From positions 637,901 through 701,900 of the forward strand of contig NZ_JARSBN010000001.1 of NCBI RefSeq assembly GCF_029624125.1: 64,000 nucleotides of DNA, written 5' to 3'. This DNA is from Winogradskyella marincola (GTDB lineage: Bacteria > Bacteroidota > Bacteroidia > Flavobacteriales > Flavobacteriaceae). The notes under the pieces are model-generated. The model made no database searches. It saw only the letters and a program-made list of their open reading frames with translations, and was not told the origin of the DNA. Below are positions 15,601 to 59,303 of this stretch, piece by piece (within the stretch, counting starts at the first letter, position 1; every line of letters begins with the position of its first letter). Made by a program: the position numbers and the translations under genes.

Positions 15601-15667
15601 TCATTTTTTTTCAATTAAAAGGTATTAAGCTAATTGTACAACAGGGTTTTATAATTGATATGAACAA

Positions 15668-18940: not shown

Positions 18941-18943
18941 AGT

Positions 18944-20755: not shown

Positions 20756-20759
20756 TTTA

Positions 20760-24406: not shown

Positions 24407-24438
24407 TTGTAAAGGGATATTAACTTTTGGTGAGCTTA

Positions 24439-24723
24439 TTATTTTTTTTTACTCGGATAGTAATTCGCATCAATTACATTATAAATATCTGAAAGCTTAT
24501 AAAAAATCTTTGATTTTACTTGTAAGTAAGGCAAAATTCCATCGGTACGCCAAGTACTAGCCGTTTTGGCGGTAATTTTAAATAATTGCATTATATCGGC
24601 ATTATCTAAAATTGTGTACTCTGGCGATTGTATATTATTAATTTTCTGTTGCTTTATTAAATAATCTAACCTGTCATTTATCTTTTTAAGACTATCGTTT
24701 ATTGGGTGTTTGAATGTAGACAT
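24439..24723 (-). CDS. helix-turn-helix protein (excisionase/MerR-like)
   Basis: A 94-residue protein. The segment DNADIMQLFKITAKTASTWR, followed by TDGILPYLQVKSKIFYKLSD (about 41-80), is a winged HTH of the type found in excisionases: a recognition helix, then the short hairpin wing. A short coiled coil (about 8-27) precedes it and suggests dimerisation. It begins six bases after the stop of the next HTH gene upstream, with which it forms a pair. Such pairs next to an integrase usually control excision or the transcription of the element; the precise role is inferred. Confidence 0.8.
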   Translation of the reverse strand: MSTFKHPINDSLKKINDRLDYLIKQQKINNIQSPEYTILDNADIMQLFKITAKTASTWRTDGILPYLQVKSKIFYKLSDIYNVIDANYYPSKKK

Positions 24724-24729
24724 AATTAA

Positions 24730-25023
24730 TTATTTTTTAGAGTTAATACTAATTAATGCTTCGTCTAATTCGGTGCGTTTATACCTGATTAGGTTTCCTA
24801 ATCGATACGGTTTTAAAACGCCTTTTTTATTCCAATCTGATAAGGTTACTAAAGATACTTTTAGAATTTTTGCAGCTTCTTTTCGAGTGATGTATTCAGC
24901 AGGTTTTACAGGTTGAAAATGTTGAACTAAAGTTTTTAGCTCTGTTCTTACATCGTTTAAAATGTTTTCTTTTAATTCGTTTGGCGTGATACCAAACACT
25001 TGTGTTACTTTACTTTGTTCCAT
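24730..25023 (-). CDS. excisionase-family helix-turn-helix protein
   Basis: A 97-residue protein with the typical excisionase HTH: EYITRKEAAKILKVSLVTLS (about 43-62), then WNKKGVLKPYRLGNLIRYKR (63-82), where the last part is the wing that contacts the minor groove. The N-terminal 40 residues are helical. It is upstream of the second HTH gene and downstream of the RteC-like gene, all in one direction with the integrase. Likely a recombination directionality factor or a local regulator. Confidence 0.82.
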   Translation of the reverse strand: MEQSKVTQVFGITPNELKENILNDVRTELKTLVQHFQPVKPAEYITRKEAAKILKVSLVTLSDWNKKGVLKPYRLGNLIRYKRTELDEALISINSKK

Positions 25024-25104
25024 CGTATTGTGATTTATTATTTGATGGTGTAAAATTAAGTAAGGTGCACTTTGATAAACGTACCAGAAGGTACTCGAAC
25101 GGTT

Positions 25105-26385: not shown

Positions 26386-26407
26386 TAATATTAATTATCA
26401 ATTAGGA

Positions 26408-27709
26408 TTAAACGTTAAAAAAACCGCCCTTAACAATATGAGATGCTCTCTCTTGATTTTTGATTCTAATATACTTATAAAATTCTTTTTCAGTAGTATG
26501 ACCAGAAAACAACATAATATCAAACACGCTCATTCCTGCTTTATATTTGTTAGTACAGAAACTTCTTCTAGCAGTATGGGATTTGATTAAGTCGTATTTT
26601 GGAATCATTTCCGTATTAAGCTTTCCGCCTTTGGTGTACTCACATTTAATTAACTCATCCCATTCTAACATTTGACCAACCTGCTTGATATTTTCGTTTA
26701 AATCTTGTTCCTGAATCTTTTTAGGTGGTTTTCCGTTATACCTCTTATTCATTATAGATTTCATTTCCTTGGTAATAGGACAATGTACTACCCTACCGTA
26801 CTTACGGTTTTTCTTCTGCTTAATTTCAAAAAACTGCACACCATCTATGGTAATAATATCTTCTTCTTTTAATCCGTTGTAATCGCTTATACGTTGACCT
26901 GTGTAGCATCCCATTAAAAAAACGTCTCTTGCGTGTTCTAACTCTGGATATTTGGATAGGTCTTTTTCAAACATTTGATGTATTTCTTCTTCAGTTAGAT
27001 AAATTTCAGTTGTAATTTCCTTTTTAACTTTGAAGTCGTTACTCCTAAATTTTTGATTAGCTGAATAGCCTTCTGAAATTGCATAATTTAAAAACGTTTT
27101 TAGTGTTTTTATATGTTTTCCTATAGTATTTAATGAGTAATCATTAGCCTCCATAAACTTTACAAACTTATTATAGAAACTCATATCAATTGATTGAAAT
27201 ATCAATCTCGTTTTATAATACTTCTCATATTCTCGTAATCGTTTTTGAGTTTGCTTATATGAACGTAACGTTATGTTTGAAATTTGCCCATCTTTTAAGT
27301 CAATAAATTGCTGAATAACCTCGAAGAAGGTTAAGTTCTTATTCAATTCTACGTTAGGTTTTATTTTTTTAGTAAAAACGTCCAAATGATACTTTAAAAC
27401 ATCTTTAGAGACCTCTCCTTGCTCTTTAGTTAGTTCTGAATACGTTTTATTGATAAACTTTTCTAAACCGCTCAAAAAGTCGTTTACTTCGTCTTTGTTT
27501 GAAATTGAAGCTTTATTTTTTACTCTTTGCTTTTTAAAATCCCAATCATCATAACAACTTTTATATCCAGTTGAGTACCTAAAACGTGTAGTTCCGTATG
27601 CAAAGTTCAAAATAATTAAACTCTGCTTTTGTTTTGAATTTTGTAATTTAGTATTCGATTCCCTAAATGCAAAACGAGCTGTACCTTTAGAACGTGAAAT
27701 AGTAGTCAT
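26408..27709 (-). CDS. tyrosine site-specific integrase of the island
   Basis: A 433-residue tyrosine recombinase with an N-terminal arm-binding region (about 1-120), a SAM-like core-binding domain (about 125-215) and a catalytic domain. Catalytic residues are Arg273 in YTGQRISDY, His378 and Arg381 in SHTARRSF, His404 in LFSGHTTE and the nucleophile Tyr411 in EFYKY; all five are present, so it should be active. It starts 184 bases from the right attachment core and is transcribed into the island, the common arrangement for tRNA-targeting elements. It should catalyse recombination between the tRNA-Phe 3' end and the element's circular form. Between it and the boundary lie the twin GTGTGCT repeats. 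Confidence 0.95.
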   Translation of the reverse strand: MTTISRSKGTARFAFRESNTKLQNSKQKQSLIILNFAYGTTRFRYSTGYKSCYDDWDFKKQRVKNKASISNKDEVNDFLSGLEKFINKTYSELTKEQGEVSKDVLKYHLDVFTKKIKPNVELNKNLTFFEVIQQFIDLKDGQISNITLRSYKQTQKRLREYEKYYKTRLIFQSIDMSFYNKFVKFMEANDYSLNTIGKHIKTLKTFLNYAISEGYSANQKFRSNDFKVKKEITTEIYLTEEEIHQMFEKDLSKYPELEHARDVFLMGCYTGQRISDYNGLKEEDIITIDGVQFFEIKQKKNRKYGRVVHCPITKEMKSIMNKRYNGKPPKKIQEQDLNENIKQVGQMLEWDELIKCEYTKGGKLNTEMIPKYDLIKSHTARRSFCTNKYKAGMSVFDIMLFSGHTTEKEFYKYIRIKNQERASHIVKGGFFNV

Positions 27710-27743
27710 AACATTGATTTGTTTGACTTAAAGATACAAAATT

Positions 27744-27762
27744 GTGTGCTTTTTTGTGTGCT
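27744..27762 (+). repeat. twin GTGTGCT repeats, right end (possible integrase arm sites)
   Basis: GTGTGCT at 27744-27750 and 27756-27762, 12 bp apart, in the same orientation and spacing as the pair at 11281-11299. It lies just upstream of the integrase gene, so binding here could also autoregulate it. Confidence 0.5.
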
Positions 27763-27892
27763 TTTTAAGGTTTATTTTTTTAGAATTTACTTAATTAAAT
27801 TATAACAAAAAACACTCTAAAACCCTCATTTTAAAGGATTTTAAAGATATTTTGAAAAGAAATGAAATGTTTTAAGAAAGAATACATAAGTA

Positions 27893-27907
27893 CTGGAGGC
27901 ACCACCA
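27893..27907 (+). repeat. right attachment site core of the island
   Basis: CTGGAGGCACCACCA, an exact direct copy of the tRNA-Phe 3' end at 11222-11236. The preceding bases do not continue the tRNA match. Confidence 0.88.
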
Positions 27908-27910
27908 TCA

Positions 27911-27940
27911 AAAGCCCGATTCATTTGAATCGGGTTTTTT
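27911..27940 (+). terminator. original tRNA-Phe terminator, displaced by the island
   Basis: The hairpin CCCGATTCA-TT-TGAATCGGG (27915-27934) followed by TTTTTT begins a few bases after the right attachment core. In the uninterrupted chromosome it would directly follow tRNA-Phe. It now stops transcription leaving the island before the ilv leader. Confidence 0.75.
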
Positions 27941-28082
27941 GGTTTTACAGCATACTCTCCACACCAACAAAACATTTAACCTAAACAACCTCCAATCATC
28001 TTCACATAAAAAAACTAAATTTCAGTTATTTAAGAAAATGTTAGGATATCTATTATTTATTTTAAATATTTGTTTAACATTT

Positions 28083-45908: not shown

Positions 45909-46244
45909 ATGTCTAAAACCTATTACGACCCAGCAGATTTAAGAAAATTTGGAAATATTACTGAATGGGATGAAGAACTTGGCAACAAATTTTTTGACTA
46001 CTACGGAAAAGTATTTGAAGAAGGAGCATTAACTGCTCGCGAAAAATCTTTGATTGCATTAGCCGTTGCTCACACAGAACAATGCCCTTATTGCATTGAT
46101 GCATACACTAAAGACACGCTTCAAAGAGGTGTTACCAAAGAAGAAATGATGGAAGCCATACATGTTGGTGCTGCTATAAAAAGTGGAGCTACTCTAGTAC
46201 ATGGTGTACAAATGATGGACAAGGTCAACAAACTAGATGGCTAA
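45909..46244 (+). CDS. arsenosugar biosynthesis-associated AhpD/CMD-like protein
   Basis: A 111-residue carboxymuconolactone decarboxylase/AhpD-fold protein. The redox pair Cys59 and Cys62 in EQCPYCIDAYTKD, with the acidic and His residues of the family (HTEQCPYC, HVGAAIKSG), resembles AhpD alkylhydroperoxidases. This subgroup is regularly found beside the radical SAM ArsS (the next gene, 67 bases on), and in some relatives a selenocysteine replaces one Cys. It may keep arsenic trivalent or remove peroxides for ArsS; neither is shown. It is the first gene of the arsenosugar set. Confidence 0.82.
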   Translation: MSKTYYDPADLRKFGNITEWDEELGNKFFDYYGKVFEEGALTAREKSLIALAVAHTEQCPYCIDAYTKDTLQRGVTKEEMMEAIHVGAAIKSGATLVHGVQMMDKVNKLDG

Positions 46245-46311
46245 GACAGCTCTAGCACAAAACTTATCAATCTTTATTTTCGTAAATATACTGAACAAGA
46301 AAATTTAATTA

Positions 46312-47367
46312 ATGGCCACCAAATCTTTGCATAAACGAGATAACGCACTAGCACAAAGCAAAAAACAGTTAGAAATTCTTTCTAACGGAATTTTTCAGAA
46401 TGGCGAACTGCCAACGTTTAAAGATAAAATTGCAGAAACAAGTCAGTTTCCATTAAAGGCAAAACCATTAGAAATTCTTCAGATTAATGTTGGCTACATG
46501 TGTAACCAAGTCTGCGAACATTGCCACGTAGATGCAGGACCAGATCGGAAAGAAATAATGACTAAAGAAACCATGCAGCAATGCCTGGAAGTTATTAAGA
46601 AGACTGGAGCTCACACCTTGGATTTAACAGGTGGAGCACCAGAAATGAATCCTAATTTTAGATGGTTTGTTGAAGAAGCTGCAAAAGCTGGCATTAAGGA
46701 TTTTATTATACGTTCTAACCTTACCATAATTAGAGCTAACAAAAAATATTACGACTTACCAGAGTTTTTCAAAAAGCACAATGTACATGTTGTAAGCTCA
46801 ATGCCACATTGGACACGCGGAAAAACAGACAAACAAAGAGGAGATGGTGTTTTTGACAAATCCATAAAAGCTCTACAAGAACTTAATGCTATTGGTTATG
46901 GTATGCCAGACAGCAACCTAAGACTAGATTTAGTTTATAACCCTTCAGGTGCTTTTTTACCAGGCGACCAAGCTTCAATGGAAAAGGATTTTAAAAAGGC
47001 ACTAATGGAAGATTTTGGTATTCAATTTCATAATTTGTTTGCTATTACCAATCTTCCGATTAGTAGATTTTTAGATTATCTGATAGCTTCAGAAAACTAC
47101 GAAGACTACATGTATCAGTTGGTTGATGCTTACAATCCTGCTGCTGTTGCCAACGTAATGTGCACCAACACACTGTCGGTAAGTTGGGATGGTTATTTGT
47201 ACGATTGCGACTTTAACCAAATGCTAGAATTACCTGTAAACAGTAAAGTTAAACACATTTCAGAATACAATGAAGATTTATTAGAAGGCAGAAATATTGT
47301 AATATCTCAACACTGCTATGGCTGCACAGCTGGTGCTGGGAGTAGCTGCCAAGGTACAGTTGCCTAG
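46312..47367 (+). CDS. arsS: arsenosugar biosynthesis radical SAM protein ArsS
   Basis: A 351-residue radical SAM enzyme. The [4Fe-4S] motif is CNQVCEHC (Cys64, 68, 71), followed by LDLTGGAPEMNP near 103-114. The C-terminal domain (about 240-351) is Cys-rich: CTNTLS, YDCDF, and QHCYGCTAGAGSSCQG, probably binding arsenic or a second cluster. Family members transfer the 5'-deoxyadenosyl group of SAM to dimethylated trivalent arsenic, forming the precursor of arsenosugars. ArsM, two glycosyltransferases and a purine nucleoside phosphorylase nearby support this. All expected cysteines are present. Confidence 0.92.
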   Translation: MATKSLHKRDNALAQSKKQLEILSNGIFQNGELPTFKDKIAETSQFPLKAKPLEILQINVGYMCNQVCEHCHVDAGPDRKEIMTKETMQQCLEVIKKTGAHTLDLTGGAPEMNPNFRWFVEEAAKAGIKDFIIRSNLTIIRANKKYYDLPEFFKKHNVHVVSSMPHWTRGKTDKQRGDGVFDKSIKALQELNAIGYGMPDSNLRLDLVYNPSGAFLPGDQASMEKDFKKALMEDFGIQFHNLFAITNLPISRFLDYLIASENYEDYMYQLVDAYNPAAVANVMCTNTLSVSWDGYLYDCDFNQMLELPVNSKVKHISEYNEDLLEGRNIVISQHCYGCTAGAGSSCQGTVA

Positions 47368-47370
47368 CAT

Positions 47371-47391
47371 ATTCCTACGAAAGCAGGAATC
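47371..47391 (+). repeat. dispersed palindromic repeat, single copy
   Basis: ATTCCTACGAAAGCAGGAAT is a short palindrome-like unit (outer ATTCCT/AGGAAT) related to the ends of the element at 30791-30927. It fills the gap between arsS and the rhodanese gene, ending six bases before the latter's ATG. Confidence 0.55.
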
Positions 47392-47396
47392 TTAAA

Positions 47397-47891
47397 ATGA
47401 AAAACAAAATTTTATACATATTACTACTTTTCTCAGGAATCTTGTTCGCTCAAGAATCGCTTTCAGAATTATTAAAAAAGCACAATAACGAAAGCGTACC
47501 TTATATTTCAGTTCAAGAATTAGCAATGCCAAAAACCAATGCTATTCTTTTAGACGCAAGAGAACTTAGAGAATATGAAGTTAGCCATTTAAAAGATGCT
47601 CTACATGTTGGCTATAACGAATTTAATTTAGCCAACACCACAAAAAAACTAAACAACAAAGACCAAATGATTGTTGTCTATTGCTCTCTAGGAATACGAT
47701 CAGAGGACATTGCAGAGCAGTTAAAAAAAGAAGGTTACACCAATGTTTACAATCTTTTTGGTGGTATTTTTGAATGGAAAAACAACGACTTTAAAGTTTA
47801 CGACAAAAAAAATAAACTTACTGAAAATGTACACGCATTTTCAAAAGAATGGAGTCAATGGCTCATAAAAGGCAATAAAATTTATGACTAA
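47397..47891 (+). CDS. secreted rhodanese-like protein
   Basis: A 164-residue protein with a signal peptide (MKNKILYILLLFSGILFAQ) and one rhodanese domain (about 35-140). The active-site loop CSLGIRSED has Cys96 after IVVY, so a sulfurtransferase or thiol-transfer function is possible. Its location is predicted to be periplasmic, which is odd for arsenic methylation in the cytoplasm. The gene overlaps the TIGR04282-type glycosyltransferase by 8 bases, so the two are translated together. Confidence 0.82.
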   Translation: MKNKILYILLLFSGILFAQESLSELLKKHNNESVPYISVQELAMPKTNAILLDARELREYEVSHLKDALHVGYNEFNLANTTKKLNNKDQMIVVYCSLGIRSEDIAEQLKKEGYTNVYNLFGGIFEWKNNDFKVYDKKNKLTENVHAFSKEWSQWLIKGNKIYD

Positions 47892-48513
47892 AAATCTCGT
47901 TATAGTGTTTGTTAAAAACACCAAATTAGGATCTGTTAAAACAAGATTAGCCAAAACTATAGGAGATTTTGCCGCACTAGAAGTGTACAAAGCACTTTTA
48001 AAGGTTACCCAAAATGCTATTTCGGAATTAGACGCAGACACACACATCTACTTTAGCAAAGAAATCGATACCAATACGTGGACTAACCACAAAAAACAAC
48101 TGCAACAAGGCAAGGATTTAGGCGAACGTATGCTTAATGCTTTCAAAGATGGCTTTAATAGTGGTTATAAAAATATCATTCTAATAGGTTCGGATTTACC
48201 AGACATTAGTTCGTTTCATATTGAAAACGGCTTTAAATCATTACAAAAAAGCAAAGTGGTTTTTGGTCCTGCTGAAGATGGTGGTTATTATTTGGTAGGC
48301 ATGTCTAACCTGGTTAAAGACATTTTTTGCAATAAACCTTGGAGTCAACCTTCACTTTTAGAAGAAACGTTACAAGAGTTACACACATTAAACGTTTCTA
48401 TTAGTAAATTAGAAACTTTAAATGACATAGACACTTATGAAGATTTAATAGCTTCAGATTTTTATAAAAACAATCAACAACTACAAGAAAAAATCAGACA
48501 ATTCCATGATTAA
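47884..48513 (+). CDS. TIGR04282-type arsenosugar biosynthesis glycosyltransferase
   Basis: A 209-residue GT-A fold protein of the nucleotidyl/glycosyltransferase type (DUF2064). It has an N-terminal VFVKNTKLGSVKTRLAKTIG (8-27) with a nucleotide-binding Lys-Thr-Arg, then LIGSDLPDIS (about 99-108) and GPAEDGGYYLVGM (about 129-141). This family co-occurs with ArsM/ArsS and is thought to act on the arsenosugar ring; its exact donor is not known. It overlaps both neighbours by 8 bases (rhodanese and the phosphorylase), a strong sign of a tight operon. Confidence 0.85.
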   Translation: MTKNLVIVFVKNTKLGSVKTRLAKTIGDFAALEVYKALLKVTQNAISELDADTHIYFSKEIDTNTWTNHKKQLQQGKDLGERMLNAFKDGFNSGYKNIILIGSDLPDISSFHIENGFKSLQKSKVVFGPAEDGGYYLVGMSNLVKDIFCNKPWSQPSLLEETLQELHTLNVSISKLETLNDIDTYEDLIASDFYKNNQQLQEKIRQFHD

Positions 48514-49318
48514 ATTTATAGAAGAAAGTACAGAATACTTAAAACAAAAAGGATTTAACAATCCAGAAGTTGGCATTATTTTAGGAACTGGCTTAGGTCA
48601 GCTCATTAACGAAATAGATATTGAAGCTGAAGCCAGCTACAACCATATTCCAAATTTCCCAACGGCAACTGTAGAGTTTCATAAAGGAAAACTCATTTAC
48701 GGTACACTTGGAGGAAAGAAAGTAGTAGTAATGCAAGGTCGTTTTCATGTGTATGAAGGCTACACGTTTCAAGATGTAACTTTTCCGGTGAGAATCATGG
48801 AAAAGCTAGGCATTAAAACACTATTAGTTTCTAACGCAGCTGGTGCTGTTAATTTAGATTTCAAAAAAGGCGAATTAATGGTCATTGACGACCACATCAA
48901 CCTTCAAGGAGGTTCACCGCTTGCCTTTAAAGGAGTTTCTAAACTTGGTGAGCGTTTTGTAGATATGAGCGCGCCTTACAATGCTGAAATTATTTCAAAA
49001 TTTGAAAGTATAGCTTCAGAGCACAACATTACACTTCACAAAGGTGTGTACGCTTCTGTTGTTGGACCTCAACTTGAAACACGAGCAGAATACCGTATGC
49101 TTAAAATTTTAGGTGCCGATGCTGTTGGTATGAGTACAGTACCAGAAATTATTGTTGCCAACCATCTAAAACTAAAAGCCGCAGCAGTGTCTGTATTAAC
49201 AGACGAATGTGATCCTGAAAATTTAGAACCTGTAGATATTACCGATATCATAGCCATGGCAAACAAAGCAGAACCAGATATGATTACGTTATTTAAAGAA
49301 TTAATTAAAAGTATATAG
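48506..49318 (+). CDS. purine-nucleoside phosphorylase
   Basis: A 270-residue trimeric PNP (PNP/MTAP family). The phosphate-binding GTGLGQLIN (about 28-36), MQGRFHVYEGYTFQDVTFPV (about 76-95), SNAAGAVN (about 110-117) and the substrate loop VVGPQLETRAEYRMLK are present. It cleaves purine nucleosides with phosphate. Embedded with 8-base overlaps between arsenosugar genes, it could remove adenine from the deoxy-arsinoyl-adenosine made by ArsS, giving a ribose-1-phosphate for glycosyl transfer; this is inference. Guanosine/inosine salvage is the fallback role. Confidence 0.92.
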   Translation: MIKFIEESTEYLKQKGFNNPEVGIILGTGLGQLINEIDIEAEASYNHIPNFPTATVEFHKGKLIYGTLGGKKVVVMQGRFHVYEGYTFQDVTFPVRIMEKLGIKTLLVSNAAGAVNLDFKKGELMVIDDHINLQGGSPLAFKGVSKLGERFVDMSAPYNAEIISKFESIASEHNITLHKGVYASVVGPQLETRAEYRMLKILGADAVGMSTVPEIIVANHLKLKAAAVSVLTDECDPENLEPVDITDIIAMANKAEPDMITLFKELIKSI

Positions 49319-49366
49319 TATTCATATACAATACTACTTTTTACTTCATACTTATTACTTAGAAAT

Positions 49367-50335
49367 ATGAGTTACCTAGAAACCACAAAAGACGTTTACA
49401 AAGAAGCTGCACTAACACCAGATGTTGGACTGTGTTGCACCACTAATCCTATTTGGGAATTACCTGGTTTGAAGATTCCAAGAATCATGCAAGAGATGAA
49501 TTACGGTTGTGGTTCAACAGTGCACGCACGTGATTTAACGAACAACCCAAAAACACTTTATGTTGGTGTTGGTGGTGGTATGGAACTGCTTCAGTTTGCT
49601 TATTTCAGCAGACAAAAAGGAGGTGTTATTGGTGTGGATGTTGTTGATGAAATGTTAGAGGCTTCTCGTAAAAACTTCAAAATAGCGGAAGAACAAAACG
49701 ACTGGTTTAAATCTGAATTTGTTGATCTTAAAAAAGGTGATGCTATGAATCTTCCGGTTGAAGATAATAGCATTGATGTTGCTGCTCAAAATTGTTTGTT
49801 CAATATTTTCAAAGCTGAAGATCTAAAAAAAGCCATTGCAGAAATGTATCGTGTGCTAAAACCTCATGGACGTTTGGTAATGAGCGATCCTACTTGCGAG
49901 CAACCTATGAACGACGACTTACGAAACGACGAACGATTAAGAGCACTTTGCTTAAGTGGTAGCTTGCCAATTGCCGACTACGTAAAAGCACTAACAGATG
50001 CTGGCTTTGGTACCATTGAAATTAGAGCTCGCAAACCCTACCGAATTCTGGATCCGAAGCACTACCCAACTGATGAATTAATCTATATAGAATCTATTGA
50101 AGTTGCTGCAATAAAAGATCCTATGCCTGCAGATGGACCTTGTATTTTTACAGGAAAAGCAGCCATCTATTATGGCGAAGATGATTATTTTGATGATAAA
50201 GCAGGACACGTATTATTAAAAAACCAACCTCTAGCTGTTTGCGACAAAACTGCTGGAGATCTTGCTGGCTTGGGACGCGATGATATTTTTATTAGCGAAT
50301 CTACCTTTCATTACGATGGTGGAGGATGTTGTTAA
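49367..50335 (+). CDS. arsM: arsenosugar biosynthesis arsenite methyltransferase ArsM
   Basis: A 322-residue SAM-dependent methyltransferase. The SAM loop is YVGVGGGMELLQ (65-76). Cysteines that can hold As(III) are Cys23-Cys24, Cys48 in NYGCGST, Cys177 in DPTCEQP and Cys195 in LRALCLSG; the last two sit where the essential pair lies in algal ArsM. The C-terminus ends GGGCC. It should methylate arsenite stepwise to dimethylarsenic, the ArsS substrate. It lies 48 bases after the phosphorylase. No ArsR, arsenate reductase or arsenite efflux gene is in the window, which points to synthesis more than plain detoxification. Confidence 0.92.
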   Translation: MSYLETTKDVYKEAALTPDVGLCCTTNPIWELPGLKIPRIMQEMNYGCGSTVHARDLTNNPKTLYVGVGGGMELLQFAYFSRQKGGVIGVDVVDEMLEASRKNFKIAEEQNDWFKSEFVDLKKGDAMNLPVEDNSIDVAAQNCLFNIFKAEDLKKAIAEMYRVLKPHGRLVMSDPTCEQPMNDDLRNDERLRALCLSGSLPIADYVKALTDAGFGTIEIRARKPYRILDPKHYPTDELIYIESIEVAAIKDPMPADGPCIFTGKAAIYYGEDDYFDDKAGHVLLKNQPLAVCDKTAGDLAGLGRDDIFISESTFHYDGGGCC

Positions 50336-50369
50336 GCATCAAAATAAATTCATTTTAAAAACACTGATA

Positions 50370-51881
50370 ATGAAATTTAATCTTGTTTACATTTTTATTT
50401 TAATGACTTCACTTTGTTTTTCTCAAGAAATAACAAAAGGAAACATCGTTAAAGACAGGCAATTCCTTATTGACAAAGGCGAATTGACCGCTAATGATAA
50501 TCAAGGAAATTTCATATCTATTCGTCCGCACACCATCAATGGTTCGTTAAGAAATTACTTTGTTGAGTTTTTTGAGAATGAAAATTTCACGGACAGAATA
50601 GAAATTGAAACAAAGGATGATACCGAAATCCTCAAAGTATTTTTACTTAATCACAAAGCCTACGTATTTATAAAAGAGAGAGAAAACAGATCTATTTCTC
50701 TAAAACTAAATAGCGTAGACTTAAACACCAAGCAACAGTTTCAGCAAGTCATTTTTTCTGCCTCTAAAGATGAAAACATCAATATTTTTAGAGCACTAAA
50801 AGACAGCTACAACATAAAATTGTTAACAGATTCTAGTTTAGTTTTAAGCTTTCCTGTGGTAGAAGACAAGGAACTTTACAACGTAGTTAAAATATTTTCT
50901 GAAGACCTAAAAGAAACAGCTGATTACAAAATTACAGCAGGTGAAACAAGCACCAGTAAAAACACCGTTTTTTTGAATACATTTCAAATTGACGGAAAAA
51001 TCTATTCGCTATTTCAGGAAGAAAATAACGCGAATGAGAATTTTTATAAATTAGTAGAAACAGACAATGAAACTCAACGATTTTTAGAAATAAAAATTCC
51101 TGATGGCACTTTTGAACTCGTAAATTCCAGAAGTCGCAACAAGCAGATGATTATTAGTGGCTTGTATTCAAAATACAAAAAAGGTGGTTTTTCAGGCTTT
51201 ACATACTATAATATTGATCTCAACAAATTTCAATATACATCTAAACAAAGTCCTTTTTTAAATGAAAATGCGTCTCGCTTTTTTTCAGGATTATTTAAAG
51301 GAAACAGAAGTATTGACATTAAAGACATTTTTATTAATGATAATTTAGACACCTACATCGTTGCGCAATTTTATATTTTAAGAAAAAATGTAGCTCCTGT
51401 AGGTATACCTATAGCTTCATTTACTTTTGCTGGTGTTACTGGCTTTATTACATTTAATCCTGTTAGCTCATCCTACAAAGTCTTTGACGATATTTTGATT
51501 GGCAAAATCAACAGCTCTGGCGAGTTGCTATGGGACAACCTTTTGCAGTTAAGACAGACCGAAAAGATTTCTTCAAAATCTAACAAAAGAGACTCTTCTA
51601 CCTTTACATTTTTCTCTAATAACGAGATTAACATTCTCATTAATGGATCTATTGACGAGGACAAAGAAGAGTTAATCGTAAAACAGGATAAAAGACCTTC
51701 TAAAACCAATTTTTACAACATAATCGTAAATCCTCATGGTGGAATAACACCAAATATTTTGTTTTCTAACAAAGATTCTGAAACTATCTTCAGAACTGAA
51801 AACGCTGTAATGTCTGATAATATAATACACATATTAGGACAAGGAAACATGAGAAAGCAATTACTATTACTAAAAATTTAG
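50370..51881 (+). CDS. secreted protein of unknown function in the arsenosugar cluster
   Basis: A 503-residue protein beginning at ATG 50370 with a signal peptide (MKFNLVYIFILMTSLCFSQ). An upstream extension of the frame to 50262 would run through arsM and is rejected. The mature part is rich in beta strands with repeated aromatic/Lys patterns, perhaps a beta-propeller (VFLLNHKAYVFIKE, KIYSLFQEEN, KIDVLI-like strands, IIHILGQGN at the end). No catalytic motif or Cys pairs are seen. Its position between arsM and the hydroxylase-like gene is the only clue to function. Confidence 0.65.
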   Translation: MKFNLVYIFILMTSLCFSQEITKGNIVKDRQFLIDKGELTANDNQGNFISIRPHTINGSLRNYFVEFFENENFTDRIEIETKDDTEILKVFLLNHKAYVFIKERENRSISLKLNSVDLNTKQQFQQVIFSASKDENINIFRALKDSYNIKLLTDSSLVLSFPVVEDKELYNVVKIFSEDLKETADYKITAGETSTSKNTVFLNTFQIDGKIYSLFQEENNANENFYKLVETDNETQRFLEIKIPDGTFELVNSRSRNKQMIISGLYSKYKKGGFSGFTYYNIDLNKFQYTSKQSPFLNENASRFFSGLFKGNRSIDIKDIFINDNLDTYIVAQFYILRKNVAPVGIPIASFTFAGVTGFITFNPVSSSYKVFDDILIGKINSSGELLWDNLLQLRQTEKISSKSNKRDSSTFTFFSNNEINILINGSIDEDKEELIVKQDKRPSKTNFYNIIVNPHGGITPNILFSNKDSETIFRTENAVMSDNIIHILGQGNMRKQLLLLKI

Positions 51882-51885
51882 TGTA

Positions 51886-52779
51886 TTGGAAAAGTACTTA
51901 GACATCATAAAAAACTCTTATTCTGGGTATTGGAATTATCTTAAGCATGAGCTTATTGACATAAACCATTGGGATAACTATTTCTACGGTCTTATTATCA
52001 TTTCTATCTTAGTCTGGATACTAGAAATCGCTTTTCCTTGGAGAAAGAACCAAGCCATTTTTAGAAAAGATTTTTGGTTGGATACTTTTTATATGTTCTT
52101 TAATTTTTTCTTATTAAACCTTATTGTTTTAATTGCCTTATCTAATACAGTAGCAGAATTACTGAACGATATTTTAGGCTCTATCGGCTTGTCTTTATCA
52201 AGCTTTCAATTGTTTGATTCTACAGATTTACCAAAATGGTTAGGTCTACTTATTTTCTTTTTAGTCAACGATTTTGTGCAATGGAACACGCATCGACTAC
52301 TCCATCGATTTGATTGGCTATGGAACTTCCACAAAGTGCATCACAGTGTAAAAGAAATGGGCTTTGCAGCTCATCTGCGCTACCATTGGATGGAACCTGT
52401 GGTGTATAACTCTATTAGATACATACCTCTGGCTATCATTGCCAATTACAGCTCTCAAGATGTTGCTATAGTATATTTCTTTGCCATCACCATTGGCCAC
52501 CTTAACCACGCTAACTTAGGTTGGGATTATGGATTTTTGAAATATATTTTTAACAACCCTAAAATGCATATATGGCATCATGCAAAAGCTCTACCTCATA
52601 ACGTAAGGTATGGTGTTAATTTTGGACTAACTTTAAGTATTTGGGATTACATTTTTAAAACCAATTACATTCCTCATGATGGACGCGACATAGAATTAGG
52701 GTTTGAAGGAGATGAAGATTTCCCTAAGGATTTTGTGAATCAGGAATTGTATCCTGCATTTTCAAAAAAAGAAAAGTAG
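51886..52779 (+). CDS. sterol desaturase / fatty acid hydroxylase superfamily membrane protein
   Basis: A 297-residue polytopic protein with four or five membrane segments (about 34-52, 64-90, 119-132, 178-216) and the di-iron histidine clusters of the superfamily: HRLLH (136-140), HKVHH (149-153) and HIWHH (about 228-232) with PHN after it. These enzymes hydroxylate or desaturate lipids in membranes. The only start near the previous gene is TTG at 51886, four bases after its stop; the first internal ATG (about residue 70) would delete a helix. A lipid-modifying step in arsenolipid synthesis is a possible role, not shown. Confidence 0.85.
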   Translation: MEKYLDIIKNSYSGYWNYLKHELIDINHWDNYFYGLIIISILVWILEIAFPWRKNQAIFRKDFWLDTFYMFFNFFLLNLIVLIALSNTVAELLNDILGSIGLSLSSFQLFDSTDLPKWLGLLIFFLVNDFVQWNTHRLLHRFDWLWNFHKVHHSVKEMGFAAHLRYHWMEPVVYNSIRYIPLAIIANYSSQDVAIVYFFAITIGHLNHANLGWDYGFLKYIFNNPKMHIWHHAKALPHNVRYGVNFGLTLSIWDYIFKTNYIPHDGRDIELGFEGDEDFPKDFVNQELYPAFSKKEK

Positions 52780-52783
52780 AATT

Positions 52784-53581
52784 ATGAAATATAGATTAGT
52801 ATTTATTATCCTTTCTATTTTAACCAACTATGCTGTGACTCAACACAAAACCTCTGTTGATTCAACAAACACCAAAATCACAGAAATAGATTCAACCTTA
52901 AAAAAGAATACTACAGTTACAAAACGTTTTCTGAAAGAGCACGAGCTTTGGGATGAATTATTACAAAAGCATGTTTCCAACGATGGGAAAGTAAACTACA
53001 AATCTTTTAAAACTGAGCACAAAAAATTACTAGATTATATCTATTGCTTAAGCTTGATGCATAAGAGCAAGTATTTTGAATCATTTTCGAAAACTAAAAA
53101 AATTGCCTTCTGGATTAATGTCTACAATGCACTTACCATAGATTTAATTTTAAGAAACTACCCATTAGAAAGCATAAAAGACATTAAAGATCCATGGAAA
53201 CAACGTCTTTGGAAACTAGCTGACCTAGATTATAATTTAGATGAAATAGAACACAACATTCTCCGTAAAATGAACGAACCTCGCATTCACTTTGCTATTG
53301 TTTGTGCTTCTGAGTCTTGCCCAAAACTTCAAAACACAGCATTTACTGCCGAAATTTTAGAAGAGCAACTCACCAAAGCAACTCAAGAATTTCTGGCTGA
53401 TACCTCAAAAAATGAAATTTCTGAAAACGAAATAAAACTCTCTAAAATATTTAGATGGTTTAAAAAAGATTTTGAGCAAGATGGTAGCCTAATTGAATTT
53501 TTAAATAAATACACAGCTATTGAAATTTCAGATAAAGCAAAAAAGAGTTTTAAAGACTACAGTTGGGATTTGAATGATTAA
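52784..53581 (+). CDS. secreted DUF547 protein
   Basis: A 265-residue protein with a signal peptide (MKYRLVFIILSILTNYAVTQ) and a DUF547 domain (about 75-215) including IAFWINVYNALTIDLIL (about 107-123), YNLDEIEHNIL (about 155-165) and FAIVCASESCPKLQNTAF (about 176-193). The invariant Cys/His of this domain (SESCP, EH) resemble a papain-like thiol centre, but activity is unknown to me. It follows the hydroxylase gene after four bases and belongs to that transcript. Confidence 0.85.
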   Translation: MKYRLVFIILSILTNYAVTQHKTSVDSTNTKITEIDSTLKKNTTVTKRFLKEHELWDELLQKHVSNDGKVNYKSFKTEHKKLLDYIYCLSLMHKSKYFESFSKTKKIAFWINVYNALTIDLILRNYPLESIKDIKDPWKQRLWKLADLDYNLDEIEHNILRKMNEPRIHFAIVCASESCPKLQNTAFTAEILEEQLTKATQEFLADTSKNEISENEIKLSKIFRWFKKDFEQDGSLIEFLNKYTAIEISDKAKKSFKDYSWDLND

Positions 53582-53590
53582 TTGATTTGT

Positions 53591-53667
53591 TATGCTGAAT
53601 TTATTTCTGCATCTAACAAATTATATGGTTCAGCACCAACCACTCAACTAAGCTCAGTAGAATGACA
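53591..53667 (+). repeat. degenerate dispersed repeat before the TIGR04283-type gene
   Basis: The segments 53591-53614 (TATGCTGAATTTATTTCTGC...) and 53643-53667 (ending GCTCAGTAGAATGACA) look like decayed copies of the short dispersed repeats that many flavobacteria carry between genes. The ATG of the next gene (53662) lies inside the second segment. Confidence 0.45.
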
Positions 53668-54372
53668 AAGGGTTTAAACAAAATATCGATTATAATTCCG
53701 GTACTAAACGAGGCTGAAAATATTGATCGTTTACTACGTCATCTTACTGAGAATTCATCATCTGAAAATGTTTCAGAAATTATTGTGGTTGATGGCGGAA
53801 GCTCTGACAGGACTGTTGAAATCATAAAGAATTTCACTCTAAGAGATATAATACTTATTTCTTCAAAAAAAGGAAGAGCCAAACAGATGAATGTTGGCGC
53901 AAAGGCTTCAACAGAGAATATTCTTTACTTCTTACATGCCGACACCTTTCCTCCAAAAAATTATGATAAATTCATTTTAGACAAAGTACAAAAAGGACAT
54001 GAAGCTGGTTGCTTTAGAATGCAGTTTGACAGCAATCATTGGTGGCTAAAACTCACTGGCTGGCTTACAAAATTCAATTTAAAAGTGTGTCGTGGCGGAG
54101 ACCAGAGTTTATTTATTACTAAAGCACTTTTTAACACCATAGGAGGCTATAACGAAAACTACACCATCTACGAAGACAACATCTTAATTGGCGAACTTTA
54201 CAAGCGGAACCAATTTACTGTAATTAACCAGAAAATCACAACCTCAGCAAGACTTTACAAAAAAGTTGGCATCTGGAAGTTACAGTATCATTTTTTGGCT
54301 ATATATTTAAAAAAATGGCTTGGAGCTTCAGCAGATGAAATGCTTGCTTATTACAAAAGGAACATTACTTAG
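53662..54372 (+). CDS. TIGR04283-type arsenosugar biosynthesis glycosyltransferase
   Basis: A 236-residue GT2-like glycosyltransferase: ISIIIPVLNEAENIDRLL (about 8-25), IIVVDGGSSDRTVEII (about 42-57) with the nucleotide-binding Asp, and LHADTFPPKNYD (about 95-106) in place of a DxD. CRGGDQSLFITKALFNTIGG (about 147-166) and IYEDNILIGEL carry the acceptor-site residues. This subfamily is found with ArsM/ArsS and the TIGR04282-type enzyme, so it probably completes the arsenosugar. The stop abuts the stop of the convergent phosphatase gene with no base between. Confidence 0.87.
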   Translation: MTKGLNKISIIIPVLNEAENIDRLLRHLTENSSSENVSEIIVVDGGSSDRTVEIIKNFTLRDIILISSKKGRAKQMNVGAKASTENILYFLHADTFPPKNYDKFILDKVQKGHEAGCFRMQFDSNHWWLKLTGWLTKFNLKVCRGGDQSLFITKALFNTIGGYNENYTIYEDNILIGELYKRNQFTVINQKITTSARLYKKVGIWKLQYHFLAIYLKKWLGASADEMLAYYKRNIT

Positions 54373-55168: not shown

Positions 55169-56176
55169 TTAATTATAAGCCGCGTACTTTTTAGACAACA
55201 CAGCTTCAACCGGTTTGTTTTGTGGAGTAAACATCGGATCTTCATGTCCACCAACCTCATTGTGTTTTATAAACCATTTCCAAATAAAACCACCTGCAAA
55301 CCAATCCTCATGCCAAAAAGCATCTAAAAGTGCTGTTGTTGTATTTACTTGTGCTTCAAGATTTACATCTCGCATTGTATAATCTGACACCCAAGGTTGT
55401 TTGGCAGAATAATCCACACTTCGGTATCCATATTCAGTAAACAAAATTGGTCTATCTAATTGCTTTGAAAGTTTTTCAATAATGGGTTTATGAGATTTCC
55501 AACCCTCTAAACAATCCTCGTAAGTAGGCGTCTTTTGGTCGCTAAGCGGAAAGTAAGCATCAATACCAATATAGTCTAATTGGTCCCAGAATGGTGTTTC
55601 TGTAAATTCATTCCAATTGGCTGCATAAGTAAGCTTTCCTTTATAAATGGATTTAACGTTTTCAATGAGTTGAAACCAATACTCTGGCCTGTGATTTACA
55701 AACAACTCTAGCTCTGTACCTATACAAAATACCTCTGCATTAACCTTTTCTGCAAGATCTGCATATTCTAATATAAAACTTGAATACGAAGTTTCTAATG
55801 CTTTCCAGTCTGTTTCGGTTGCCATCTTTATTTCGCCTGTAAACTCACCTTTCCAAACCCAAATTTGTGGTTTTATCATCACCTTTATACTGGCTTTTCG
55901 CAATTCAGAAATATATTGCTTTGCTCCTGCTCTGGTTTCACCAAACCATTGTCTGTCTGTGTTGTGAATAATCTCTGGATGCTCAAGATTTTTTATAAAA
56001 CCAAAAGGCATAATTGCGGCATAATTGGCATTGATTTTAACCACTGGAGCTACATGCGAGCTGTCCGCAACATCTCTCGCTGCCACAAAGCTAACACCAT
56101 TAATTTTGCTCGATTTATTGGGTGCGATAGAGCATCCAAAAGTCAAAAACACCCAAAACACTACTAAAATTCTCAT
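55169..56176 (-). CDS. GH113-like glycoside hydrolase lipoprotein
   Basis: A 335-residue protein with a lipoprotein signal (VVFWVFLTFGCS, Cys15) and a TIM-barrel glycosidase domain. Strand-end motifs include IKVMIKPQIWVWKGEF (about 95-110), VFCIGTELELFVN with the probable acid/base Glu (about 150-155), GKLTYAANWNE, LDYIGIDAYFPL and ILFTEYGYRSVDYS with the probable nucleophile Glu (about 250). The pattern fits family GH113 (mannanase-type) or a close relative. Substrate unknown. It is divergent from the FAD oxidoreductase gene. Confidence 0.82.
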   Translation of the reverse strand: MRILVVFWVFLTFGCSIAPNKSSKINGVSFVAARDVADSSHVAPVVKINANYAAIMPFGFIKNLEHPEIIHNTDRQWFGETRAGAKQYISELRKASIKVMIKPQIWVWKGEFTGEIKMATETDWKALETSYSSFILEYADLAEKVNAEVFCIGTELELFVNHRPEYWFQLIENVKSIYKGKLTYAANWNEFTETPFWDQLDYIGIDAYFPLSDQKTPTYEDCLEGWKSHKPIIEKLSKQLDRPILFTEYGYRSVDYSAKQPWVSDYTMRDVNLEAQVNTTTALLDAFWHEDWFAGGFIWKWFIKHNEVGGHEDPMFTPQNKPVEAVLSKKYAAYN

Positions 56177-56316: not shown

Positions 56317-57660
56317 ATGGAACACATCGCCATAATTGGAAACGGCATTTCTGGAGTAACACTTGCCAGGCACATTAGAAAGTTTTCAGACAAAAAAATA
56401 ACACTCATTTCTGCCGAAAGTGATTATTTCTTTTCTCGCACTGCACTTATGTACGTGTATATGGGACACATGAAGTTTGAACACACACAACCTTACGAAA
56501 ATTGGTTTTGGAAGAAAAATAATATCGAACTAAAAAAAGGTTTCGTTAATGAGATTGATACTGATAACAAAGTGCTACATTTTGAAGAAGGCGACCAAAT
56601 AAGCTATGATAAATTAGTCATTGCAACTGGCAGCAAACCTAATAAATTTGGGTGGCCAGGTGAAAATCTAAAAGGCGTGCAAGGTTTGTACAGCAAACAA
56701 GATTTAGAACATCTTGAAATCTATGCACCAAACAATAAAGTTTGTAAACGCGCAGTCATTGTTGGTGGAGGACTCATTGGTATTGAATTAGCAGAAATGT
56801 TGAATTCCAGAAATATTCCTGTGACTTTCTTGGTGCGTGAAAGTAGTTTTTGGAATAGCGTTTTGCCAGAAGGCGAAAGCCAAATGCTAAATAGACACAT
56901 AAAGAATCATCATATCGATTTAAGACTTTCAACTAATCTTAAAGAAATCATTTCTGATGATAAAGGGAAAGTAAAATCAATCATCATTGAAGAAACAGGC
57001 GAAGAAATCCCTTGTGATTTTGTAGGCTTAACAGCTGGTGTAACACCTAACATTTCATTTTTAGAAGAAAGCAACATCGAAACTAACAAAGGTGTTTTGG
57101 TTAATCGATTTTTAGAAACCAACATTAATGATATTTATGCAATTGGCGATTGTGCTGAGCAACGCGAGGCAATTGGTAATCGCAGACCTATTGAAGCAGT
57201 TTGGTACACAGGTCGCATGATGGGCGAAACATTAGCGCAAACCATTTGTGGTAATCCTACAGAATACAAACCAGGACATTGGTTTAACAGTGCTAAATTT
57301 ATAGACATAGAATACCAAACCTATGGTTGGGTACATGGTAAAAAAGGAAGACCTGAATATGAAACTCATTTTCATTGGAAACATGACGACGACACCAAAT
57401 GCATTACCATAGCTTACCACAAAGACACTAAGGAATTTTTAGGCATCAATACCTTTGGCATAAGAATGCGTCACGAAGTGTTTGACAAATGGCTCACCGA
57501 AAAATGGACTATTGATACGGTTTTAAAACATCTTCAAGCTGCTAATTTTGATCCTGAGTTTTATAAACTTCACGAAAAAGATATTATCAAAAAATACAAC
57601 CAGGATACCAATAGCAACATTAAACTGAGCAAAAAACATTGGCGCAAATTATTTGCATAA
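56317..57660 (+). CDS. NAD(P)/FAD-dependent oxidoreductase
   Basis: A 447-residue two-dinucleotide-binding flavoprotein. IAIIGNGISGVTLARHIRKF (4-23) is the FAD Rossmann motif, VIATGSKPN lies near 105, AVIVGGGLIGIELAEML (about 145-161) is the NAD(P)H site and YAIGDCAEQ (about 270-278) the second FAD contact. The C-terminal 150 residues (from about 300) are not a standard dimerisation domain. The membrane polyferredoxin gene follows after 20 bases, so the flavoprotein may pass electrons to it. It resembles ferredoxin/nitrite reductase-type or rubredoxin-reductase-type flavoenzymes; substrate unknown. Confidence 0.86.
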   Translation: MEHIAIIGNGISGVTLARHIRKFSDKKITLISAESDYFFSRTALMYVYMGHMKFEHTQPYENWFWKKNNIELKKGFVNEIDTDNKVLHFEEGDQISYDKLVIATGSKPNKFGWPGENLKGVQGLYSKQDLEHLEIYAPNNKVCKRAVIVGGGLIGIELAEMLNSRNIPVTFLVRESSFWNSVLPEGESQMLNRHIKNHHIDLRLSTNLKEIISDDKGKVKSIIIEETGEEIPCDFVGLTAGVTPNISFLEESNIETNKGVLVNRFLETNINDIYAIGDCAEQREAIGNRRPIEAVWYTGRMMGETLAQTICGNPTEYKPGHWFNSAKFIDIEYQTYGWVHGKKGRPEYETHFHWKHDDDTKCITIAYHKDTKEFLGINTFGIRMRHEVFDKWLTEKWTIDTVLKHLQAANFDPEFYKLHEKDIIKKYNQDTNSNIKLSKKHWRKLFA

Positions 57661-57680
57661 TCCTAAGCTAAATAAGACAC

Positions 57681-59303
57681 ATGAAACTAATTAAATATAT
57701 AGGTTTAGCTATTTTCCTTTTGGGTTTAGCGCTATTTTCTGGAAGTATTTTTCTCGGCAATTTTAGTATGACCGACATACAAGTTGATGACTATATTTCT
57801 GAACAAGGTATTAAAAGTGACATCTTTTCCAAGGAACTTAAAAAGACTTTAGTCACCGAAGAACAAATCAACATTTTTGAGTTTTCTTCAGCTGTTAGAA
57901 AAGCACTTGAAACCTCTAACAACTATTACGACAAACAAATTGCTAAATACAACGCTGAAAAAAACTGGGCAAAAAAAGGAGAACAGTACCAATATAAAAT
58001 TCATGAAAAACCACACACCATCAGCTATAACCTGGCAAAAAAAGCTGGTTCTGGTTTTGTAAAAGAAAATATAGCTCTCATGTGGTGGCTCACATTTGGA
58101 CTGGGCATCATTGGAGCTCTTCTTTACATTTTACCAAATGTTTTGTTGTTAGGACCTCCAGGGATAAAAAACAATGGCATATACCATAAGTCTGCCACCA
58201 ATCGTGGTTGGATTGCTTGGTTAGTCCTTGTGTATCTTGTGGTCTTTTATTTGCTACTCTATTTTATGCCAGACTATGTTGTAAACTGGACATATATTTT
58301 AGACCCAATTAGCAATACACTTAATGGTGGTGATGCCAGCCAATGGTTTGTTTACGGATTTTTGTACTGCGTTATTATGGTGGTTATGGCTGTAAGAATG
58401 TATATAAAATATCGCCATAACAAGTACCAAATAATGCGAACGACATCTGTGTTATTTTTTCAGATTGTCTTTGCATTTTTAATTCCAGAGATCATGGCTA
58501 GCCTTAACATGCCTGGTTATGATTTTAAAAGTGCTTTCCCTTTAGATTATGACTTTTTCTTTGAATGGAACATTAAAAATCTTACTGAAAGTGGTGCTAT
58601 AGGACTCTTCATATTAGTTTGGGGAACAATTTTAACAATTATTATTGTGCCATTAATGGTTTACTTTTTCGGAAAGCGCTGGTATTGCAGTTGGGTTTGC
58701 GGTTGTGGTGGACTTGCAGAAACTCTAGGCGACCCTTACCGTCAGCACTCAGACAAAAGCCTGAAATCCTGGAAACTAGAACGATGGATTGTTCATTCTG
58801 TATTATTGATCTCTATAGTAATGACCATAGTGACCTTGTATTGCTATTTTACAGGAGCAAAATCCTTTATTGGTATCAATTCTCAATGGATTAAAGACTC
58901 ATACAGCTTTTTAATTGGTGCTTGGTTTGCAGGTGTTATTGGCACTGGCTTCTACCCTATTTTTGGCAATAGAGTGTGGTGCCGATTTGGCTGTCCTCTT
59001 GCGGCTTATTTAGGATTAGTTCAGCGTTTTAAATCTAGATTTAGAATTACCACCAATGGTGGACAATGTATTTCTTGCGGAAACTGTTCTACCTATTGTG
59101 AAATGGGAATTGATGTACGTGCCTATGCTCAAAAAGGTGAAAATATTGTACGTTCTAGCTGCGTTGGCTGTGGTGTTTGTAGCGCTGTTTGTCCTCGAGG
59201 TGTTTTAAAATTAGAAAACGATAGCACAAAAGGTCGTATTAATCCTAATGATATTTTGTTGGGTAACGATGTTAATCTAATGGATTTGGTAAATCAGAAA
59301 TAA
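57681..59303 (+). CDS. membrane 4Fe-4S polyferredoxin (NapH/CcoG-like)
   Basis: A 540-residue protein with about six or seven membrane helices (first at 5-27, KYIGLAIFLLGLALFSGSIF). Cys motifs CSWVCGCGG (about 334-342) and CRFGCPLAA (about 437-445) are typical of NapH/NosR/CcoG proteins. Two ferredoxin clusters follow, CISCGNCSTYC (about 463-473) and CVGCGVCSAVCPRG (about 496-509). It should move electrons across or along the inner membrane to an unknown acceptor. The unusually long N-terminal region (30-120) faces the periplasm or cytoplasm and is not recognised. Preceded by a flavoprotein gene and followed by glycosyltransferases. Confidence 0.85.
   Translation: MKLIKYIGLAIFLLGLALFSGSIFLGNFSMTDIQVDDYISEQGIKSDIFSKELKKTLVTEEQINIFEFSSAVRKALETSNNYYDKQIAKYNAEKNWAKKGEQYQYKIHEKPHTISYNLAKKAGSGFVKENIALMWWLTFGLGIIGALLYILPNVLLLGPPGIKNNGIYHKSATNRGWIAWLVLVYLVVFYLLLYFMPDYVVNWTYILDPISNTLNGGDASQWFVYGFLYCVIMVVMAVRMYIKYRHNKYQIMRTTSVLFFQIVFAFLIPEIMASLNMPGYDFKSAFPLDYDFFFEWNIKNLTESGAIGLFILVWGTILTIIIVPLMVYFFGKRWYCSWVCGCGGLAETLGDPYRQHSDKSLKSWKLERWIVHSVLLISIVMTIVTLYCYFTGAKSFIGINSQWIKDSYSFLIGAWFAGVIGTGFYPIFGNRVWCRFGCPLAAYLGLVQRFKSRFRITTNGGQCISCGNCSTYCEMGIDVRAYAQKGENIVRSSCVGCGVCSAVCPRGVLKLENDSTKGRINPNDILLGNDVNLMDLVNQK

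Follow-up and report, generated by a model that had tools for sequence, protein, structure and literature searches.

A putative two-module arsenosugar locus of Winogradskyella marincola, with a purine nucleoside phosphorylase and a CofC-like protein as candidates for the steps after ArsS

Introduction

By which enzymes is an adenosylated arsenical turned into an arsenosugar? The question is raised by a run of ten genes in Winogradskyella marincola (Flavobacteriaceae), located at positions 45909–54372 of a stretch of 64,000 nucleotides (contig NZ_JARSBN010000001.1, positions 637,901 to 701,900 of the forward strand; the window in the following). Here, the arsenite methyltransferase ArsM and the radical S-adenosylmethionine (SAM) protein ArsS are accompanied by a purine nucleoside phosphorylase (PNP), a TIGR04282 protein, a hydroxylase-type protein, a DUF547 protein and a TIGR04283 glycosyltransferase. 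According to a review, the biosynthesis of oxo-arsenosugars involves a radical SAM enzyme by which arsenic is adenosylated (PMC12159101). The open literature that we searched leaves unsettled how the adenosylated arsenical formed by ArsS then becomes an arsenosugar, i.e., how adenine is lost and how the aglycone is attached. An earlier proposal for an algal arsenolipid, reported in a review, has an adenosyl nucleosidase remove the adenine, with phytyl diphosphate as partner (PMC10456119), and in a bacterial genome paper 'arsenosugar biosynthesis glycosyltransferase' genes figure as annotations alone (PMC13077682). In the open arsenosugar sources, available in part and with subscription papers outside their scope, PNP, hydroxylase and DUF547 proteins were not named as a synthesis step, and TIGR04282 figured by annotation only.

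Our comparison of gene content and co-occurrence suggests that the locus joins two modules, AhpD-ArsS-PNP-ArsM (module 1) and rhodanese-TIGR04282-hydroxylase-DUF547-TIGR04283 (module 2). The cluster is of a known kind and an ordinary possession of Flavobacteriaceae; its interest lies in its internal logic. New here are the resolution into two modules, the PNP group that we call class A, the link between hydroxylase and TIGR04282, and the CofC-type fold of TIGR04282. Relative to ArsM/ArsS arsenosugar genes, two additions mark the window: TIGR04282 and ArsM are separated by a class A PNP, and TIGR04283 is preceded by a hydroxylase and a DUF547 gene.

Gene content and recurrence of the locus

The putative module 1 consists of an AhpD-like protein (45909–46244; TIGR04169, 191 bits against a cut-off of 120), ArsS (46312–47367; TIGR04167, 445 against 300), a trimeric-type PNP of class A (48506–49318; NF006054, 341 against 218) and ArsM (49367–50335; NF038099, 581 against 400). 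Module 2 would comprise a rhodanese (47397–47891; NF045521, 'rhoda_near_glyco', 209 against 145), the TIGR04282/DUF2064 protein (47884–48513; 195 against 134), a protein of the fatty-acid-hydroxylase superfamily (51886–52779; Pfam match to PF04116, TTG start), the DUF547 protein (52784–53581; Pfam match to PF04784) and the TIGR04283 glycosyltransferase of the GT2 family (53662–54372; 235 against 182). A protein of 503 residues (50370–51881, with ATG at 50370) lies between ArsM and the hydroxylase. By eye, this protein, the rhodanese and the DUF547 protein carry signal peptides.

All ten reading frames were found on the plus strand at the limits given in an earlier note on this DNA. That note had also counted several 8-base overlaps; overlaps exist, but they number two (47884–47891 and 48506–48513), the other gaps being short. 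Five of the ten proteins match NCBIfam families named for arsenosugar synthesis, all above the curated cut-offs, namely ArsS with its CxxxCxxC motif, ArsM, and the neighbors TIGR04169, TIGR04282 and TIGR04283. This supports the view, already taken in the note, of an arsenosugar-type biosynthetic locus. Its further argument for a biosynthetic product, from absent efflux and ArsR genes, is weak, with only near neighbors inspected and no genome-wide search made. The motifs of ArsM and ArsS are intact as claimed: among relatives collected by score, C64, C68, C71 and five later cysteines of ArsS were invariant in 107/107, and ten cysteines of ArsM in 74/74. Relatives collected in the same way had invariant C59 and C62 in the AhpD-like protein (99/99), C96 in the rhodanese (84/84), E156, H169, C174 and D229 in DUF547 (71/71) and eleven histidines in the hydroxylase (30/30). 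Presumably, some of these motifs serve 4Fe-4S and di-iron centers.

The 503-residue protein had no Pfam or NCBIfam match at E 0.001, and its single-sequence model was unusable, with a predicted local distance difference test (pLDDT) score of 33.6. Among the loci read it had one relative, in L053 (48% identical). It was hence rejected as a general pathway member and looks accessory. The window genome (3.52 Mb, 24 contigs) holds one ArsM above the NF038099 cut-off and one TIGR04282 protein; its closest named ArsS relative, from Winogradskyella tangerina, is 95% identical.

Genome searches were confined to the phylum of the window. Within the family, ArsS exceeded its cut-off in 184 of 249 genomes. 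We took 80 ArsS loci with record titles, kept the 65 whose flanks were long enough, left out the other 15, and counted genes on the same strand from 3 kb before to 10 kb after ArsS, which gives lower bounds for the distal genes. The AhpD-like gene was present in all 65 loci, TIGR04282 in 50, rhodanese in 42, ArsM in 40 and TIGR04283 in 31. PNP (49/65), DUF547 (36/65) and the hydroxylase (19/65) recur as well. Because these partners recur, the gene order is not due to chance. The succession AhpD-ArsS-rhodanese-TIGR04282-PNP-ArsM-(hydroxylase)-DUF547-TIGR04283 is visible in many loci; others differ, Maribacter, Muricauda and Arenibacter, for example, having loci with AhpD-ArsS in which the rest of the cluster does not appear.

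Across the phylum, TIGR04282 exceeded its cut-off in 174 of 296 genomes that were at least 95% complete. We read 39 of these loci, 36 of them outside the family and picked to spread over families, and confirmed the match in 39/39. Outside the family, ArsS accompanied TIGR04282 in 11 loci, TIGR04283 in 15 and either of them in 19; two loci (L210, L222) showed a TIGR04283-TIGR04282 fusion.

Separation of the two modules in a related genus

The modules come apart in the genus of genome G328, which is probably Flavobacterium, its class A PNPs grouping by sequence with that of F. kayseriense (L121). TIGR04282 is rare there (9/81 genomes). We assembled a set of 80 genomes in which its prevalence is not the natural one: 12 with TIGR04282, nine from the genus search plus G381, G393 and G521 from the phylum search, and 68 without, 59 of the 72 from the genus search plus nine from the phylum search, the 13 dropped being mostly less complete. 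The hydroxylase (E ≤1e-40, 65–73% identical) was found in 11 of the 12 against none of the 68 (Fisher 1e-12, kinship ignored). PNPs were divided at a boundary that we set at 56% identity to the window PNP. Class A (58–69% identical) occurred in 7/12 against 0/68 (Fisher 2e-7, kinship likewise ignored), and the ordinary class B PNP of the genus (45–51% identical) was present alongside in six of the seven class A genomes. In all seven genomes, ArsS is found in the same stretch as the class A PNP (loci including L236 and L237). Two genomes carry the modules at separate places: AhpD-ArsS-PNP-ArsM lies 0.9 Mb from TIGR04282-hydroxylase-DUF547-TIGR04283 in G565 (L276 and L275) and 18 kb from it in G555 (L279 and L278). 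In L275, one extra frame stands between TIGR04282 and the hydroxylase. Module 2 occurs without any class A PNP in five genomes (G549, G569, where it is on two contigs, G576, G381 and G393). On a tree of ordinary PNPs, the TIGR04282-positive genomes are scattered, with four changes forced by well-supported branches.

A strict tie of the PNP to TIGR04282 was rejected from this set despite their constant proximity in the family-wide set described below (58/58), since five of the 12 TIGR04282-positive genomes lack class A and two have it elsewhere. The hydroxylase match of G555 (L278:9467–10339) contains one in-frame TAA, possibly a sign of decay where the modules stand apart.

Active site and class of the phosphorylase

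In the alignment, all 115 class A PNPs have Leu, Glu and Asp at the positions that we equate with 200, 201 and 243 of human PNP, and either Ile (108) or Val (7) at 257; class B has Phe, Glu, Asp and His in 8/8. We transfer this human numbering by way of alignments with PDB sequences, human PNP itself not being among the aligned sequences. The window PNP features D233 and I245 instead of the Asn243 and His257 equivalents. Asp at position 243 suits a 6-aminopurine, an effect known from the Asn243 to Asp exchange in human PNP. As a marker of an arsenic-related PNP this Asp was rejected, being present in every PNP compared. The window PNP shares family and length with trimeric PNPs (PDB 4lna, 8swt, 8swu) and keeps the Glu201 equivalent; it differs by Asp for Asn243, Leu for Phe200 and, within class A, Ile or Val for His257, 4lna likewise having Asp and lacking His.

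In methylthioadenosine phosphorylase, the base site carries an Asp, and His257 is replaced by a hydrophobic residue. The window PNP has both residue types but keeps Glu201, the alignment containing no such phosphorylase, and it scores far below the corresponding family TIGR01694 (94.4 against 274.85 bits). It also falls just below TIGR01700 for 6-oxopurine-specific trimeric PNPs (289.9 against 293.35 bits) and exceeds the cut-off of the broader NF006054. Trimeric PNPs are described in one paper as limited to 6-oxopurines via Glu201 and Asn243 (PMC9916683). For His257, another reports a hydrogen bond to the 5'-OH of the ligand that was not persistent in those simulations (PMC4308819). Lacking the His257 equivalent, class A would therefore suit a substrate without a 5'-OH, and the changes in its 5'-pocket appear suited to a 5'-modified nucleoside.

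Fold of the TIGR04282 protein and likely type of the hydroxylase

The TIGR04282 model, built from a 43-sequence alignment, reached a mean pLDDT of 94.6. Its best structural match was the uncharacterised 3cgx (Z 27.2), followed by 7p97, a 3-phospho-D-glycerate guanylyltransferase (Z 19.6), 2i5e (19.1), 6bwh (Rv2983; 17.5) and 6bwg. Across this group, Z ranged from 19.6 to 16.9 over 185–188 residues, with root-mean-square deviations of 2.5–2.7. We take 2i5e, 7p97 and 6bwh to be the proteins named CofC and FbiD; guanylyltransferases of this type are thus the nearest fold after 3cgx. Further down came cytidylyltransferases (Z ≤14.6) and, as first glycosyltransferase, mannosylglycerate synthase (Z 13.8); Foldseek placed the glycosyltransferase GtrB at rank 18. 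By sequence, matches to the CofC families were weak, with PF01983 and with TIGR03552, where the score of 34.4 bits stays below the cut-off of 105. Judged from the model, TIGR04282 appears to be of the nucleotidylyltransferase type and not a glycosyltransferase. The earlier note had both GT-annotated proteins use the PNP product as glycosyltransferases, which we retain for TIGR04283 and abandon for the CofC-like TIGR04282. A phosphorylase yielding a sugar 1-phosphate and a nucleotidylyltransferase acting immediately after it would be a coherent pair, provided that the two have these activities. A second, divergent TIGR04282-like protein (DUF2064), which the window lacks, lies near ArsS in 19 of the 65 full-flank loci (e.g., L060:11124–11804).

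Proteins of the FA_hydroxylase superfamily act on lipids. The window hydroxylase belongs to this superfamily with conserved histidines, as does the ornithine lipid hydroxylase OlsE; its score against NF052566 (80.3 bits, cut-off 475) is too low for OlsE itself.

Family genomes with and without ArsS

For a family-wide control we hand-picked 80 of the 249 genomes, 46 with and 34 without ArsS, which is not a random draw. TIGR04282 was present in 46/46 and 12/34, respectively; no ArsS genome among the 46 was without it. PNP occurred in 46/46 and 27/34, and in all 58 genomes with TIGR04282 the two genes lie within 2 kb, start to start. ArsM of the arsenosugar type (E ≤1e-60) was found in 42/46 and 0/34, TIGR04283 in 52 of the 80 genomes. 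The hydroxylase (E ≤1e-60) was found in 45/46 and 13/34; sorted by TIGR04282, this corresponds to 57/58 genomes with and 1/22 without it. Among these 58 hydroxylase matches, 19 are at least 60% identical; the other 39 (49–59%) lie mostly at other loci.

We read 20 loci from genomes without ArsS. Ten have TIGR04282 directly before PNP (L163, L164, L171, L172, L174–L178 and L181), together with rhodanese in eight, TIGR04283 in nine, DUF547 in five and the hydroxylase in one; in the remaining ten, PNP stands in unrelated surroundings. No stop codons were seen in TIGR04282 of the ArsS-free genomes. These runs show that the latter half of the cluster can occur apart from arsenic genes. The earlier note had proposed the hydroxylase and DUF547 as new pathway members. 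As conserved members of the locus they hold; as arsenic-specific genes both were rejected, since they also occur in ArsS-free genomes or loci, where TIGR04282 with PNP persists in 12/34 genomes.

Neighboring genes

Downstream of the cluster, a pyridine nucleotide-disulphide oxidoreductase and a NapH-like Fe-S protein (56317–59303, plus strand) are recurrent neighbors whose membership is uncertain. Several relatives that have no ArsS in the stretch carry similar genes after module 2, and the pair could feed electrons to the hydroxylase. Of 30 loci that lacked ArsS in the stretch, 15 had an FAD oxidoreductase near TIGR04283, against none of six with ArsS, a flank-limited count that we did not use and that at face value speaks against a general link. 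A GH113-family protein on the opposite strand (55169–56176) also recurs downstream.

In several relatives, TonB-dependent or Oar-like outer-membrane proteins are encoded between ArsS and the rest or after TIGR04283 (L060:11124–18737, L052:11868–14981, L228:10426–13638 and, by eye, L236, L238 and L274); a rough pattern count gave 9/65 loci, and L060 additionally has SusD, an SSF-family symporter and a phosphoesterase. This suggests traffic of the arsenical or its product across the outer membrane. Farther away, a block of low GC content (0.29) at 12001–28000 contains, on the minus strand, a phage-type integrase (26408–27709) and a type III restriction-like helicase (15668–18940), other frames resembling helicase and DNA methyltransferase by eye. 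It is possibly an integrated defence island.

Discussion

In the route that we propose, ArsM would methylate arsenite and ArsS would attach a 5'-deoxyadenosyl group to the methylated arsenic, both steps being known chemistry. The class A PNP would then phosphorolyse 5'-deoxy-5'-dimethylarsinoyl-adenosine to adenine and an arsenical ribose-1-phosphate. From this, the CofC-like TIGR04282, as a sugar-1-phosphate nucleotidylyltransferase, would make a nucleoside diphosphate sugar, TIGR04283 would glycosylate an acceptor and the hydroxylase would modify a lipid acceptor. Module 1 would hence make the arsenical sugar phosphate that module 2 activates and transfers, module 1 being optional for module 2. 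Where module 2 occurs without ArsS in relatives, usually with a PNP copy of its own, it would have to use another sugar or nucleoside. Phosphorylase and nucleotide sugar would thus stand where the algal scheme has nucleosidase and phytyl diphosphate (PMC10456119). We infer all substrates and products after ArsS, as well as the roles of the hydroxylase, DUF547, rhodanese and AhpD-like proteins, from the observed gene content, order, co-occurrence, residues and fold. That the PNP acts after ArsS, as the earlier note had supposed, is plausible from the co-occurrence in the genus set, the AhpD-ArsS-PNP-ArsM runs of two genomes and the active-site changes. To the two-module route as a whole we give about an even chance.

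Several observations weigh against it. Twelve of the 34 ArsS-free genomes keep TIGR04282, its PNP and a hydroxylase, so that none of the three is arsenic-specific, and four of the 46 ArsS genomes are without an NF038099 ArsM at E 1e-60. The 39 hydroxylase matches of lower identity may represent a paralogue, which weakens the family-wide hydroxylase link. Nine ArsS genomes have their PNP far from ArsS and beside TIGR04282; in six of these ArsM is there, too, so that the genes are divided in the opposite way to the genus set. Of the 36 TIGR04282 loci outside the family, one had a PNP (L204). ArsS in the genus set is known from the loci read rather than from a search of the 80 genomes, and the ordinary-PNP tree, with 26 rows from 25 genomes (G518 twice), covers only five of the 12 positives. 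Stand-alone class A PNPs likewise carry the class A residues (8/8), and PDB 4lna and 4m1e have Leu, Asp and a residue other than His at the same positions. With Glu201 kept and Asp243 common to class B, activity on 6-oxopurines probably remains. Class A is not confined to arsenic loci; hence, the data fit equally well with a wider role in which 5'-deoxy or 5'-thio adenosines are the substrates. For TIGR04282, a shared fold is no proof of activity.

The PNP might be a housekeeping phosphorylase of 5'-deoxyadenosine and methylthioadenosine (and purines) that shares the operon as radical SAM chemistry yields 5'-deoxyadenosine, and not for any action on an arsenical. Such a role would agree with the stand-alone class A copies, with the 27 ArsS-free PNP genomes and, as a further point against our route, with the single PNP match that the family-wide set shows in 71 of its 73 PNP-positive genomes (G033 has a second copy, 47% identical, and G162 an additional 20-bit match). 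Moreover, PF01048 is represented by just two further proteins in the window genome, a DeoD-type one and a uridine-phosphorylase-like one below cut-off, so that no other methylthioadenosine enzyme of that superfamily is obvious. In the genus set, however, class A is an added copy confined to cluster genomes (7/12 against 0/68) and has ArsS in its stretch in 7/7. We regard an exclusively housekeeping PNP as possible, with the chances tilted against it, and both roles could hold at once. Rather improbable is that module 2, as an unrelated operon for glycolipids or the envelope, is joined to ArsS and ArsM only by shared regulation or drift, with arsenosugar synthesis ending elsewhere. Module 2 does stand without ArsS in ten of the 20 ArsS-free loci read, its TIGR04282 stop-free, and in the genus set it occupies a place of its own; yet TIGR04282 was missing from none of the 46 ArsS genomes, and outside the family ArsS still accompanies it in 11 of 36 loci.

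We see very little chance for a plain arsenic detoxification operon without a glycosylated end product: methylated and adenosylated arsenic from ArsM and ArsS alone may suffice for this purpose, but the run repeatedly includes genes for nucleotidylyltransferase-like, glycosyltransferase and hydroxylase proteins. Slimmer still is the prospect of the PNP as an arsenate reductase feeding ArsM. According to a review, PNP with a dithiol reduces arsenate in vitro, whereas such a role in vivo is not known (PMC12608789). This is a side activity of ordinary PNP, and it would leave both the changed 5'-pocket and the adjacency to TIGR04282 unexplained.

We may also speculate on an undescribed, more general route of sugar activation. 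A 5'-modified nucleoside would be converted by a specialised PNP to a ribose-1-phosphate, by TIGR04282 to a nucleotide sugar and by TIGR04283 and the di-iron hydroxylase to a glycolipid. Arsenic would be an optional 5' substituent supplied by ArsM and ArsS, and relatives without ArsS would use a non-arsenical nucleoside, for example 5'-deoxyadenosine. This generalization is tentative, and we would sooner expect it to fail than to hold.

For the passage from the adenosylated arsenical of ArsS to the arsenosugar, the comparison offers a candidate enzyme per step, and it questions the name given to TIGR04282. As the half for glycosylation can occur where the arsenic half is absent, the two are separately testable, and the relatives with split loci, G565 and G555, are natural experiments to this end.

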